From the NCBI GenBank assembly GCA_029243925.1, contig JAQWRC010000188.1, positions 1 through 11,995 on the forward strand: a stretch of DNA of 11,995 nucleotides. The letters run 5' to 3'. Position numbers and translations under genes: made by a program. How positions within the stretch are numbered: the first letter of the stretch is position 1; every line of letters begins with the position of its first letter. The notes under the pieces were generated by a model. It searched no databases, was not told the DNA's origin, and saw nothing but the letters and a program-made list of their open reading frames with translations. This stretch comes from Phycisphaerales bacterium (GTDB taxonomy: Bacteria > Planctomycetota > Phycisphaerae > Phycisphaerales > SM1A02). Shown here in pieces: positions 4,960 to 8,437 of this stretch.

Positions 4960-5946
4960 ATGTTGCTCTACGCAGGAATCGATGAAGCTGGCTACGGACC
5001 GATGCTCGGACCACTGTGTGTGGGCCGCGCACTGTTCGCTATCGAGGACTGCGATCCGAATCTTGGTGCTCCGGATCTGTGGGCTCGGCTTGACCATGCC
5101 GTGTGCAGAGGTCGCCGTGACCATGGCAAGCGCATCGCCGTCGACGACTCAAAGAAACTCAAGAGCAGCAACAAGGGATCAATCCATCCACTTCACCATC
5201 TTGAACGTGGCGTGCTGGCGTTTCTGGGCGTGACCCGGGATTCGATGGATTGGTTCGAGTCATTGACGGATGAGGACGTCCTCGCCGTGCTCGGGGCACA
5301 GGTGCCTCCACATGCCTGGTACACCGGCAAGACCGAACTCCCCGTCGGTGAAGATCGAGGACTGCTTCGCATAGCAACATCTCGTCTGCAGCGATCCATG
5401 ATCGATGCAGGAGTGACCTGCAGATCACTGGCCTGTGAGATCATCGATGCTGATGCGTTCAATCTTCAAGTGGATCGCACCGGCAACAAGGCACATGTGA
5501 ACTTTGCCGCGGTGCTTCGTCATATCGAACACCTCCGACACCACCATCCTGAAGATGATCTCCACGTGGTCGTGGATCGCCAAGGTGGCCGAACGACCTA
5601 CCGCCGGGACCTTCAGCAGGCATGGCCAGAAGACACCCTCAAGGTGCTGGATGAGGCCCCCGCCCTCTGTCGATATCGCCTGGATTCGACGAATCGAGCT
5701 GCGTGCAGCATCACATTCGCGCAAGCCGGCGACAGCCGCCACCTCCCGATCTCCTTGGCCTCGATGGCCGCAAAGTACACCCGGGAGCTCCTTATGCTGA
5801 GGCTCAACCGATGGTTCGCTGCCACCAAGCCAGACCTGAAGCCCACCGCAGGATATGTTCAGGATGCACGGCGATACCTCCAGGATATCGAAACGATCCT
5901 CGAATCAAAATCCATAGATCGATCAAACCTGATCCGCGTCTGCTGA
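4960..5946 (+). CDS. RNase HII-like protein, enlarged
   Basis: RNase HII removes ribonucleotides from DNA and RNA:DNA hybrids. This 328-residue protein starts with YAGIDEAGYGPMLGPLCVG (4-22), contains VDDSKKL (61-67), VVVDRQGGR (203-211) and AGDSRHLPISLASMAAKYTREL (256-277, key D258). Together D8, E9, D206 and D258 line up with the four catalytic acids D-E-D-D of RNase HII (E. coli D16, E17, D108, D126). Two things differ from the usual enzyme of about 200 residues: the substrate-recognition GRG motif reads GYG, and about 75 extra residues (roughly 90-165) separate the DSKKL motif from the third catalytic Asp. The family is clear, but specificity (ribonucleotide excision, hybrid cleavage, or something else) is not. 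It follows ggt by 21 bases without an obvious ribosome-binding site, so it probably belongs to the mnmA-ggt transcript. Its stop codon is inside the structure at 5945-5983. Confidence 0.82.
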   Translation: MLLYAGIDEAGYGPMLGPLCVGRALFAIEDCDPNLGAPDLWARLDHAVCRGRRDHGKRIAVDDSKKLKSSNKGSIHPLHHLERGVLAFLGVTRDSMDWFESLTDEDVLAVLGAQVPPHAWYTGKTELPVGEDRGLLRIATSRLQRSMIDAGVTCRSLACEIIDADAFNLQVDRTGNKAHVNFAAVLRHIEHLRHHHPEDDLHVVVDRQGGRTTYRRDLQQAWPEDTLKVLDEAPALCRYRLDSTNRAACSITFAQAGDSRHLPISLASMAAKYTRELLMLRLNRWFAATKPDLKPTAGYVQDARRYLQDIETILESKSIDRSNLIRVC

Positions 5947-5983
5947 GCAACTGCAACCCAAGTTGCTCCTCTACTGGGTTTTT
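5945..5983 (+). terminator. Terminator with possible H-type pseudoknot at the end of the mnmA-ggt-RNase run
   Basis: GAGCAACT (5945-5952) pairs perfectly with AGTTGCTC (5961-5968). The 8-base loop contains AACCCA (5955-5960), which pairs perfectly with TGGGTT (5975-5980), followed by TTTAT. The second stem alone plus T-run resembles an intrinsic terminator. The two stems together have H-type pseudoknot geometry: 2-base first loop, no junction, 6-base last loop. The stop codon at 5944-5946 overlaps the first stem. Confidence 0.65.
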
Positions 5984-5987
5984 ATCA

Positions 5988-6015
5988 TTGACAGGGCTCT
6001 TTTCGCCGATAGAAT
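5988..6015 (+). promoter_or_regulatory. Sigma70-type promoter upstream of fusA
   Basis: TTGACA (5988-5993) is a perfect -35. A 16-base spacer leads to TAGAAT (6010-6015), 5 of 6 matches to the -10 consensus. It starts right after the T-run of the upstream terminator, so fusA seems to have its own transcript. Predicted transcription start is about 6022, leaving a leader of about 300 bases before the fusA ATG. Confidence 0.8.
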
Positions 6016-6097
6016 CCCCAGATTGCTGGTGAATAATGTTTCTCTCCAGCGATTTTGAATCAGGCGTACCGATTTCCAACTGCACTCGGAGGTTTCC

Positions 6098-6136
6098 ATG
6101 CAGAACGAGGATGACGAATACGCCCGGGTTCGCTGA
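6098..6136 (+). CDS. Candidate 12-residue leader peptide upstream of fusA
   Basis: The ORF reads MQNEDDEYARVR and ends with TGA at 6134-6136. GGAGG (6088-6092) lies 5 bases before the ATG, the best ribosome-binding site in the window and much better than that of fusA itself. The peptide is acidic in the middle and ends Arg-Val-Arg (codons CGG, GTT, CGC). It is too short to be a conventional protein. Its last codons are part of an RNA sequence that can pair with the stem downstream, as in ribosome-sensing leader peptides. It has no run of one amino acid, so classical amino-acid attenuation is not indicated. Translation is inferred from the ribosome-binding site only. Confidence 0.45.
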   Translation: MQNEDDEYARVR

Positions 6137-6174
6137 GGCTCCGGACCACAAGTCCAGCCCGGTGTTCACCGGGC
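6122..6174 (+). promoter_or_regulatory. Mutually exclusive stems at the end of the leader ORF
   Basis: GCCCGG occurs at 6122-6127 (inside the leader ORF) and again at 6157-6162. Either copy can pair with CCGGGC at 6169-6174. The second copy gives a 7-bp stem with a GTTC tetraloop (6157-6174). A third hairpin, 6137-6159 (GGCT/AGCC and GGAC/GTCC around a 2-base bulge), uses up part of the left arm of that stem. A ribosome at the leader ORF stop would cover the first copy and favour the last stem, which is the logic of an attenuator switch. The pairings are directly visible; the switching is inferred. Confidence 0.45.
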
Positions 6175-6189
6175 CAGAGTCGGCGGAAC

Positions 6190-6210
6190 GCATCACGTAT
6201 CAGGTGATGC
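6190..6210 (+). repeat. Perfect 7-bp hairpin in the fusA leader
   Basis: GCATCAC (6190-6196) and GTGATGC (6204-6210) flank the 7-base loop GTATCAG. It lies between the competing stems and an unstructured A/C-rich stretch (6211-6234). Function unknown. Confidence 0.5.
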
Positions 6211-6234
6211 CCACCGAAACACATCAAACAACAA

Positions 6235-6263
6235 CGCACCGCGATCGGTGCGGATACGTATCC
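6235..6263 (+). repeat. 7-bp hairpin abutting a 12-base palindrome in the fusA leader
   Basis: CGCACCG (6235-6241) and CGGTGCG (6246-6252) flank a CGAT tetraloop. The palindrome GGATACGTATCC (6252-6263) starts on the last base of the stem. As RNA the first part is a stable hairpin. As DNA the palindrome could be an operator, but it lies more than 200 bases after the promoter, an unusual place for one. Confidence 0.45.
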
Positions 6264-6274
6264 CTCCACATTCA

Positions 6275-6289
6275 GGTCCATTTCGGACC
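6275..6289 (+). repeat. 5-bp hairpin nearest the fusA start
   Basis: GGTCC (6275-6279) and GGACC (6285-6289) flank the loop ATTTC. It ends 33 bases before the fusA ATG, so it does not directly cover the start codon. Confidence 0.4.
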
Positions 6290-6322
6290 ACTTACCACTC
6301 TACGACCCCAACGGATCACATC

Positions 6323-8437
6323 ATGTCCAAGAATCTCTCAAATGTCCGCAACATTGGAATCTGCGCCCACATCGACGCAGGCAAGACCACCGTCACGGAA
6401 CGTGTCCTCTACTACACGGGCATGAACTACAAGATGGGCGAAGTCCATGAGGGCACCGCCACGATGGATTTCCTTGAGGAAGAACAGCAGCGAGGGATCA
6501 CCATCCAGTCTGCAGCGACCACGTGCCCATGGGATTTCCATGGCGACACGTACACGGTCAACCTCATCGATACTCCTGGTCACGTCGATTTCACGATCGA
6601 AGTCGAACGCTCAATGCGTGTGCTTGATGGCGCAGTCACGGTCTTCGACGGCAAGGAGGGCGTGGAGGCCCAATCCGAAACCGTGTGGCGACAAGCTGAC
6701 CGATACAACGTCCCCCGTATCTGCTTCATCAACAAGATGGACAAGATCGGAGCCAACTTCGAATTCTCATACAACTCCATCATTGAACGGCTTGGCGCAA
6801 ATCCGATTGCCGTGCAGATTCCCATCGGCGCCGGAGATGACCTGAAGGGACTCATTGATCTCATCGAAATGCGTGCTTTCTACTTTGACAGCGGCGAGCT
6901 TGGAGCCGTCGTAGAAGAACGCGACATTCCAGACGACCTCCGAGGCGAGGCTGACGCATGGCGTCACCAGATGCTCGAGCAGACGGCTGAATTGAATGAT
7001 GATTTCATGGAGCAGTACCTCGAGGATGAACACTCCATTGATGTGGAAGCGATCCGCTCGGCCCTCCGAGATGGCACGATCAATCACAAATGTACTCCCA
7101 CCTTCTGCGGCGCAGCCCTTCGCAACATCGGTATCCAGCGACTTCTCGATGGAGTCATCACGTTCCTGCCAAACCCCACAGAAGTTCCTGACGTCCAAGG
7201 GACGAACCCCAAGGACGAAAAGGAGAAACTGTCACGAGCCAGCACGGCCGATGCCCCGTTCTCCGGTCTGGTTTTCAAGGTTGTTTCTGATACCCACGGC
7301 GATCTGACCTACTGCAGGATCTATTCGGGCACGCTGAAGAAGGGAACACGGGTTCTGAATCCTGGCAACAACAAGAAGGAAATCGTCTCACGCATCTACG
7401 AGATGCATGCCAAGGACAGAGAAGCACTTGATGAAGCGTACGCTGGTTCAATCGTTGCACTCATTGGCCTCAAGAATTCCGGAACAGGCGACACCCTGTG
7501 CTGCAACGACTCCCCCATCATCCTTGAGCGGATGCACTTCCCTGATCCGGTCATCTCGATGTCCATCGAACCCATTACGACGGATGACAAGAAGAAACTT
7601 GGCGAAGCGCTTGGCACGATTCAGCGCGAAGACCCCTCTTTCCGTTCCCGATACAACGATGAAACCGGCGAAACCATCATTTCCGGCATGGGTGAACTCC
7701 ACCTTGAAATCGTCAAGAACAAGCTTGTTCGGGACATGAAGATCGGCGTGAACGTCGGCACACCACGCGTGAGCTACCGCGAAACTATTACCGGCATCGC
7801 AACCGATGTCCGTGGCAAGTTCGTGAAGCAGACCGGCGGTCGCGGCCAGTACGGCGATGCGGTACTCAATGTCGAACCGATCACCATGGAACAGGCCGAA
7901 GAACAGGAACTGACCATGAAGGACGGCGTCGTCTTCGTGGACAACATCAAACAGGGCGTGATTCCTCGCGAATACATTCCTTCCGTTGAAGTCGGCGCTC
8001 GATCTGCTGCACTCTCAGGCATTCTGGGCGGGTACCCCATGCAGAACGTCAAAGTCGAACTTGTCTTCGGTTCCTACCATGACGTCGACTCGAGTCAGGT
8101 TGCCTTCGAGCAGGCTGGAGCGCTTGCGTTCCGCCAGGCGTGCACGCAGGCGGGACTCACCCTCCTTGAGCCCATCATGCGAGCGATGATCACGACTCCG
8201 GAGGATTTCTTCGGACCCGTCAGCGGCGACCTCTCCTCCCGACGTGGGCAGATCGTCGAAACTGAAATTCGTGCCAACACGAGAATCATCCACGCCGATG
8301 TACCGCTCTCAGAAATGTTTGGATACACGACCGTACTCCGCGGCATGACTCAGGGCAGAGCCTCGATGACCATGGAGCCGAGCGAATACCGGGCCATGCC
8401 ACCAAACCTGACCAAGGAAGTTCTGGCCCAGACCTGA
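6323..8437 (+). CDS. fusA: Translation elongation factor G
   Basis: EF-G is the GTPase that drives tRNA-mRNA translocation on the ribosome and, with RRF, ribosome recycling. The 704-residue length equals that of E. coli EF-G. GTPase motifs are all present: AHIDAGKTT (15-23), RGIT (57-60), DTPGH (83-87, catalytic H87), NKMD (137-140) and CGAA (262-265). Domain IV carries TGGRGQYGD (504-512). [21 protein letters not shown] is of the canonical EF-G I kind, not the mitochondrial/spirochaete-like spdEFG1 kind. The start at 6323 begins [13 protein letters not shown] as expected; a GTG at 6248 is in frame but would add 25 residues atypical of the family. Only a weak CGGA precedes the ATG. The gene stands alone between its own promoter and a strong terminator, not in the usual rpsL-rpsG-fusA-tuf string, at least on the visible side. 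Confidence 0.98.

Follow-up and report, generated by a model that had tools for sequence, protein, structure and literature searches.

Introduction

Upstream of fusA, the gene for elongation factor G (EF-G), a Phycisphaerales genome carries a short, Shine-Dalgarno (SD)-led reading frame that overlaps RNA stems of which the alternatives exclude one another. This arrangement raises the question of whether the frame and the stems act together as a regulatory leader for a core translation factor and, if so, which event in translation such a leader would report. The window analyzed here, a stretch of 11,995 nucleotides, comes from a metagenome assembly that is incomplete (G000; 1.86 Mb in 408 contigs) and whose nearest named relatives by EF-G are metagenome-assembled genomes of Phycisphaerales, several of them bearing marine isolate names.

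According to excerpts of one study (PMC2965389), RNA leaders before fusA have been predicted in streptococci and, by other work that it cites, in Pelagibacter. The window shares with those cases a predicted RNA control upstream of fusA; it differs in that the leaders described in these excerpts belong to the rpsL-rpsG-fusA operon, the streptococcal one being a predicted terminator, whereas the window has a leader ORF and no terminator was found. The publications found on fusA leaders or upstream regions appear to concern Bacteroides and Pelagibacter. No fusA leader peptide was found in the literature searched, which consisted of open-licence papers, so that absence there is no proof. The excerpted text of a survey of leader genes by distance to gene, Planctomycetes included (PMC4833913), does not name fusA, and a word search of the text of a uORF review (PMC11550727) returned neither fusA, EF-G, nor MgtL.

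The fusA locus and its leader

In the window, fusA stands outside the rpsL-rpsG-fusA operon, its neighbors being a gene for an RNase HII-like protein and, directly 3', the RibD gene. The genes on its 5' side resemble those for MnmA (tRNA 2-thiouridine synthase), gamma-glutamyltransferase, and the RNase HII-like protein. The latter (4960-5946, 328 aa) matches Pfam family PF01351 only in part (49 bits, 66 residues), and its gene precedes fusA in both same-genus genomes too. The features of the leader are collected in Table 1.

Table 1. Positions in the window of the features of the fusA leader
Feature	Position	Strand	Details
Predicted sigma-70-type promoter	5988..6015	+	TTGACA-16 nt-TAGAAT; 11/12 matches
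Whole element by covariance model R1	6080..6192	+	32.1 bits, E = 1.9e-5 in 347,598 bases
P0 hairpin, SD in loop	6080..6103	+	CTGCA 6080-6084 with TGCAG 6099-6103, the latter overlapping the start codon
Mini-ORF Shine-Dalgarno GGAGG	6088..6092	+	Five bases before ATG 6098
Leader mini-ORF MQNEDDEYARVR and stop TGA	6098..6136	+	ATG at 6098
Acidic run E-D-D-E, codons 4-7	6107..6118	+	Near-invariant codon positions 1-2, varied third, in 55 aligned elements
ALT strand 1 GCCCGG, last ORF codons	6122..6127	+	Pairs with CCGGGC 6169-6174
P3 post-stop hairpin within ALT	6137..6159	+	GGCT/AGCC, GGAC/GTCC; predicted fold
P1 stem enclosing P2	6137..6181	+	GGCTC 6137-6141 with GAGTC 6177-6181
P2 local hairpin, excludes ALT	6157..6174	+	GCCCGGT 6157-6163 with ACCGGGC 6168-6174
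Distal leader	6182..6322	+	Beyond the stretch matched in two same-genus genomes; no intrinsic terminator detected on the + strand
fusA, elongation factor G	6323..8437	+	TIGR00484, 902 bits, cut-off 659

The preliminary description of this DNA had reported a GGAGG five bases before the ATG of a 12-codon ORF, a GCCCGG repeat (6122-6127 and 6157-6162) with a shared CCGGGC partner, and a competing hairpin (6137-6159), and all of these coordinates were confirmed. It had also called the ribosome-binding site of fusA poor, which agrees with the anti-SD duplex energies in the window, -3.3 kcal/mol for fusA versus -10.2 kcal/mol for the mini-ORF; the duplex is the stronger one at the mini-ORF in 86 of 93 leaders.

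Conservation of an acidic mini-ORF before fusA

Two collections of leaders were used. The f1 set comprises 121 unique fusA leaders, mostly of family f1, and includes at least four loci from other families (L094, L095, L101, and L113) that are also present in the second collection, the order set, which holds 57 leaders picked by hand from other families of the order. Under a fixed criterion (an SD match of at least 4 nt, 5-20 codons, and at least four Asp/Glu among residues 2-10), an acidic mini-ORF was found in 51 of the 118 leaders nearest the window, leaders shorter than 300 bases being excluded from the 121, versus a mean of 0.25 in 20 dinucleotide shuffles, and in 27 of the 57 order-set leaders versus a mean of 0.35 in as many shuffles. 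Relaxing the criterion to at least three acidic residues raised the counts to 64 and 29 leaders, versus 2.8 and 1.3 in shuffled sequence. At the same loci, an acidic SD-led ORF is present in 38 of 55 leaders versus none in 293,463 bases of same-strand flanks; the opposite-strand flanks held four in 315,738 bases.

By eye, 64 of the 121 f1-set leaders were judged to carry an acidic SD-led mini-ORF, 176 to 403 nt before fusA, and the other 57, three of which have less than 200 bases of leader, were not. The two same-genus genomes carry the mini-ORF MQHEEDEHARLR with an SD identical to that of the window, and further f1-set examples are MPNDEDDDARPR, MQEDDEEDARLH (TTG start), MLDEAENARLR (TTG start), MSDDDEVARLY, and MPGDSDNDDDAGC. 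In the order set, an ORF was listed by eye in 33 of 57 leaders, three of them doubtful, with a distribution over families of 27/34 in f2, 1/1 in f3, 5/6 in f4, 0/4 in f5, and 0/12 in f6; examples include MDEEDEIGLR, MEQDPDPEQA, MSDSDDDDSDPR, and MNDEDD. Three long or doubtful order-set ORFs (L249, L254, and L268) and a copy of L095 (L246) were excluded from the pairing, energy, and composition tests. Outside the order, 40 hand-picked leaders, 20 from further orders within the class and 20 from other classes, have no acidic mini-ORF; one of them (L317) has only 14 bases of leader.

Several leaders fall between these classes. Four of them (L144, L184, L186, and L160; genera g26, g16, and g62) hold acidic, partly proline-rich frames that lack a clear SD, such as MPGDDDDPDPN..., MDDDPPNDDDEPT, and MPSDDDPPPDDDEPT; these lie at approximately the right distance from fusA, were not counted, and are possibly weak or leaderless versions. 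SD-led short ORFs with few acidic residues stand at the expected place in L120 (genome G010) and L093 (genome G004), VEVSESAGLLT and MDQIKEGNIQAPLR, and are perhaps decayed copies. One genome (G091), in an assembly rated 5% contaminated, has two fusA copies (L142 and L143, the latter with many N), with an acidic mini-ORF (MPGDDEEDPG) before one only.

Of 64 leaders, 43 have a promoter match of at least 9/12 in the 150 bases preceding the mini-ORF, and 2 have one between the mini-ORF and fusA; the order set gave 13 of 33 upstream and 0 of 33 in the interval between mini-ORF and fusA. A match upstream of the mini-ORF means that the predicted transcript includes the ORF, and on the sequence level this speaks against a transcription start downstream of 6136, the possibility that the preliminary description had named as fatal to its reading. 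The promoter stretch 5994-6020 has a second copy elsewhere in the window's genome (contig C257, 1746-1772; 89% over 27 bases).

Peptide constraint and RNA constraint

Which part of the mini-ORF is held as peptide and which as RNA was read from its codons. In the alignment of 55 elements, variation at the first two acidic codons is 0-0.23 bit at positions 1-2 and 1.8-1.9 bit at position 3. Usage of GAC/GAA/GAG/GAT in the mini-ORFs is 39/27/17/17% versus 26/35/22/17% in fusA; since the acidic codons are thus used approximately as in fusA, charge alone seems to be fixed. Asp and Glu interchange across the mini-ORFs, as do ATG and TTG starts, and the acidic run mostly consists of 3-6 D/E, usually without prolines. 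Among residues 2-10 of the accepted ORFs, the share of D/E is 50% for the f1 set and 56% for the order set, acidity being in part a criterion of acceptance.

The 3' codons behave in another way. GCC accounts for 86% of the 59 Ala codons in mini-ORFs versus 37% in fusA, and this GCC is the beginning of the ALT strand. Some ORFs end right behind the acidic run, namely MNDEDD* in four f4 leaders, MQEEDW* in L115, and MLDEDE* in L187, and the latter two retain the ALT strand downstream of the early stop, out of the ORF frame. Because early-stop ORFs keep the pairing strand, the 3' codons look conserved as RNA. The codon patterns therefore suggest that the acidic run is a conserved peptide signal and that the A-R-L-R codons are kept mainly as an RNA strand. 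The preliminary description had recognized the leader ORF, its SD, the exclusive pairings, and the choice of the downstream fold, and these parts of its interpretation stand, the ORF itself being conserved; it had overlooked the acidic run as the conserved part of the peptide and the conservation of the 3' codons as RNA, as seen in L115, L187, and the early stops of f4.

EttA is an ABC-F factor that relieves acidic pauses. Twenty of the 45 f1 genera, the window's genus included, lack a match to its model TIGR03719, as judged from a match list in which the 52 genomes without a match are unnamed. The mini-ORF is present in 19 of the 20 EttA-less genera versus 8 of the 25 with EttA (Fisher p = 1.4e-5, from a hand-made genus table). 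An EF-G tree (56 rows, 34 genera) reduces this to 3-4 independent pairs by mini-ORF or 6-8 by EttA, over which the sign test does not reach significance. Family f4, which has both the mini-ORF and EttA, and genus g36, which has neither, are exceptions, absence of EttA is unsure in the incomplete genomes G000 and G001, and genus g29 has a contig-edge fragment. The association was dropped as evidence because the tree-aware test fails.

Mutually exclusive folds over the end of the ORF

The leader can take two predicted states, state A with ALT around P3 and state B with P1 around P2. The free fold of the window from 6119 is state A (-34.5 kcal/mol), and blocking the 18 nt at the ORF's 3' end in silico yields state B (-24.4 kcal/mol), in line with the earlier proposal that a ribosome on the mini-ORF would select the downstream fold. 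Fifteen members were folded and classified by eye: ALT appears in the free fold of 11, three (L059, L043, and L110) already form P1 and P2, and in L034 the ORF end is paired elsewhere. When the ORF end is blocked, P2 forms in 13 of the 15, the standard P2 being absent in L034 and L140.

Conservation of the pairings was assessed by cognate tests, for which rows more than 75% alike were thinned so that 80 of 93 leaders were used. The ALT duplex is more stable when both strands come from one leader than when the downstream strand is taken from another, both in the f1 set (-20.9 vs -17.6, sd 0.4, p <= 1e-4) and in the order set (-17.6 vs -16.2, p = 0.004). P0 and P1 pairing is cognate in the f1 set (p <= 1e-4 and p = 0.001) and gives p = 0.68 and p = 0.21, respectively, in the order set. 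The controls, distal leader and acidic codons, were flat.

Covariation of ALT was examined in a 55-row alignment not fitted to it, where 29 cells show change on both sides versus 17 in shuffles (0/500 as high) and the covariation score is 0.115 versus 0.082 (0/500). The number of ALT pairs with change on both sides is not striking in that alignment (6 vs 4.4, with 29/500 shuffles as high), and its pair types show no excess (123/500). In a 19-row seed, the both-sided cells of ALT fail against shuffles (72/500), and the percentage paired was reached in 2/500. For P0, P1, and P2 together, the figures were 83 versus 27 shuffled (0/500) in the alignment fitted to these stems and 18 versus 8.5 (0/500) in the unfitted 19-row seed. 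Conservation of the ORF, its SD, and the alternative pairings in relatives had been named by the preliminary description as the check on its reading, and the mini-ORF counts, the covariation, and the cognate duplexes bear it out.

Two readings of the leader can be weighed here. A protein such as a CsrA-like or ribosomal protein may bind the RNA at P0 or at P1/P2, the mini-ORF being a mere ribosome landing site; the many f1-set leaders with the SD in the loop of a hairpin, and the covariation of P0, P1, and P2, would suit this. P0 is undetectable in the order set, yet the acidic run is retained there, and Rfam holds no matching family, which makes such a protein-bound element improbable. Translation of the mini-ORF may otherwise protect or unfold the mRNA constitutively, with no sensing, as its strong SD, the promoter match upstream, and the weak fusA site would allow. 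This leaves the acidic run and the conserved mutually exclusive pairing unexplained, and we regard it as very improbable.

A covariance model and its distribution

A covariance model, R1, was built on P0, P1, and P2 from 19 relatives with the window left out. In the window's genome, the element is the sole match at E <= 0.01 (E = 1e-4 there). Across the family, R1 finds 69 places in 67 of 181 genomes, and where the genome has a listed fusA, 47 of 53 places lie on the same strand, 96-323 nt upstream of fusA. Among the remaining six, one (G062) reads into fusA and two (G030 and G005) stand at contig ends, compatible with an assembly break. The other three, at contig C16 of G020 (246029-246139), contig C476 of G015 (635-729), and contig C353 of G139 (638-725), lie away from the listed fusA and may be fortuitous or mark further carriers of the element. 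A further 16 places have no listed fusA position, one of which (G025) reads into fusA.

At E <= 0.01 in genomes of the order outside f1, one match (L271, genome G054) adjoins fusA. Three more (L290-L292) were treated as chance as no fusA is encoded nearby, as was the match in G240, which lies on a different contig from its fusA. In the other orders and classes sampled, no match fell below E = 0.26.

That the ORF and the pairings arose by chance has no supporting point that we could find; the shuffled-leader and flank controls, the R1 match, the covariation, and the cognate duplex tests all speak against it, and this explanation is hardly credible. The existence of an acidic leader ORF with a two-way fold before fusA, conserved in many Phycisphaerales, is well supported.

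Candidate outputs of the leader

How the folds could act on fusA was approached through several known kinds of output. An intrinsic terminator follows the element in only 3 of 80 leaders (15 for the reverse strand), and none was found on the + strand of the window between 5900 and 6400. Pairing of the element with the fusA start region is not cognate (p = 0.41 and 0.87). Given the lack of cognate pairing at the fusA start and the few intrinsic terminators, the output step is unsupported. A translational attenuator of the mgtQ type that sequesters the ribosome-binding site was rejected on the lack of cognate pairing. In the distal leader, C exceeds G in 36 of the 52 f1-set leaders that carry the ORF and in 49 of the 54 that lack it; base composition does not separate the two groups and lends no support to a C-rich Rho signature.

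Classical amino-acid attenuators have a leader ORF that overlaps mutually exclusive stems. The fusA leader is like them in this overlap and unlike them in that no intrinsic terminator was found in the window, Asp and Glu are interchangeable, and the gene lies outside amino-acid synthesis; with terminators in so few leaders, this class was rejected. Rfam has no family at gathering score in the window, the best for 5950-6330 being an unrelated sRNA (E 0.32, 18.3 bits vs a cut-off of 50). A ribosomal-protein leader of the rpsL/fusA kind was set aside as well, with no match to a described RNA family and with RNase HII-like and RibD genes as neighbors.

A proposed model of ribosome abortion on acidic codons

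To our knowledge, the ribosome-destabilizing leader ORFs described so far all serve enterobacterial Mg2+ genes. As reported in excerpts of one study, MgtL, the leader of mgtA in enterobacteria, has early acidic residues (EPDP), and drop-off versus completion leads to different mRNA conformations (PMC11282234). Excerpts of another describe mgtQ, an 8-codon ORF before mgtB in Salmonella, with ribosome-destabilizing Asp/Glu codons and alternative stem-loops that overlap the ORF (PMC8092293). D/E-rich N-termini abort translation approximately in proportion to the number of D/E, an effect that Mg2+ counteracts, according to a third, likewise excerpted source (PMC9718836). The fusA leader carries the sequence features of such a destabilization leader, namely a short SD-led ORF with a promoter match, early acidic residues, and mutually exclusive stems.

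By analogy, we consider it probable that the fusA leader acts like MgtL and mgtQ, aborts on the acidic run being reported by an RNA switch that sets fusA expression. The fusA transcript would start upstream of the mini-ORF, and a ribosome would initiate well there and meet Asp/Glu codons within a few residues. A ribosome that passes the run would cover the ORF end, so that 6169-6174 would fold into P2 within P1. An abort in the run, by intrinsic ribosome destabilization or peptidyl-tRNA drop-off, would leave the ORF end free to form ALT around P3. The two folds would then set fusA expression, with Rho-dependent termination, translation, or mRNA decay as candidate outputs, and EF-G supply would track early ribosome abortion on acidic nascent chains. 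The signal itself, ribosome abort on acidic codons, is likewise taken from these known leaders and may apply here.

The likeness to MgtL lies in a short leader ORF with acidic first codons and in two mRNA conformations, which are predicted folds here. The target is EF-G instead of an Mg2+ transporter and the phylum is a different one; the MgtL run contains proline, whereas the fusA-leader run is usually proline-free; and a Rho-dependent terminator is described for MgtL, whereas the distal base composition of the fusA leader is non-discriminating. With mgtQ, the leader shares Asp/Glu codons and alternative stems that overlap the ORF; mgtQ acts by releasing the ribosome-binding site of mgtB from sequestration, whereas the fusA start region is unpaired with the element. 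Since the downstream gene encodes EF-G and has no part in Mg2+ transport, the leader is viewed as working like an Mg2+ leader without being classed as one.

The same anatomy would fit pausing or slow elongation, in which the dwell of the ribosome relative to RNA polymerase picks the fold and the leader senses elongation speed, as the preliminary description had supposed, or the charging of Asp/Glu-tRNA. Excerpts of the MgtL study also indicate that a stable pause can arise from acidic residues in certain genes (yjbJ, PMC11282234). Asp and Glu swap freely, hence no single charged tRNA would be read; a ribosome held up towards the end of the run would presumably still mask the ORF end, as after completion; and the gene for EF-G belongs to no amino-acid pathway. 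This reading is thus unlikely, if less so than a protein-bound element, and the conserved acidic run points to ribosome destabilization or drop-off over elongation speed as such.

Within the abort-based reading, a tentative and rather doubtful extension would make the leader a gauge of EF-G itself. EF-G in excess would translocate before slow peptide-bond formation in the acidic run ends and eject the short peptidyl-tRNA, giving ALT and lower fusA expression, and scarcity of EF-G would allow completion and raise it. With prolines and D-amino acids, EF-G has been observed in vitro to drive drop-off on short nascent chains that are difficult to make, as excerpts of one report state (PMC8934632); that it also does so on acidic runs and in the fusA leader is our proposal. 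If EF-G concentration raises drop-off on slow short chains, the leader would, speculatively, be a direct EF-G gauge. Such autoregulation, if true, would mean that the leader gauges EF-G concentration through an error that EF-G itself causes.

The fusA leader offers a test of EF-G regulation through translation failure, and its short mini-ORF and RNA strands allow clean mutants. If the abort-based reading is true, the leader would be an independent case, in several Phycisphaerales families, that guards a core translation factor, and early acidic chains would then be a more general sensor.
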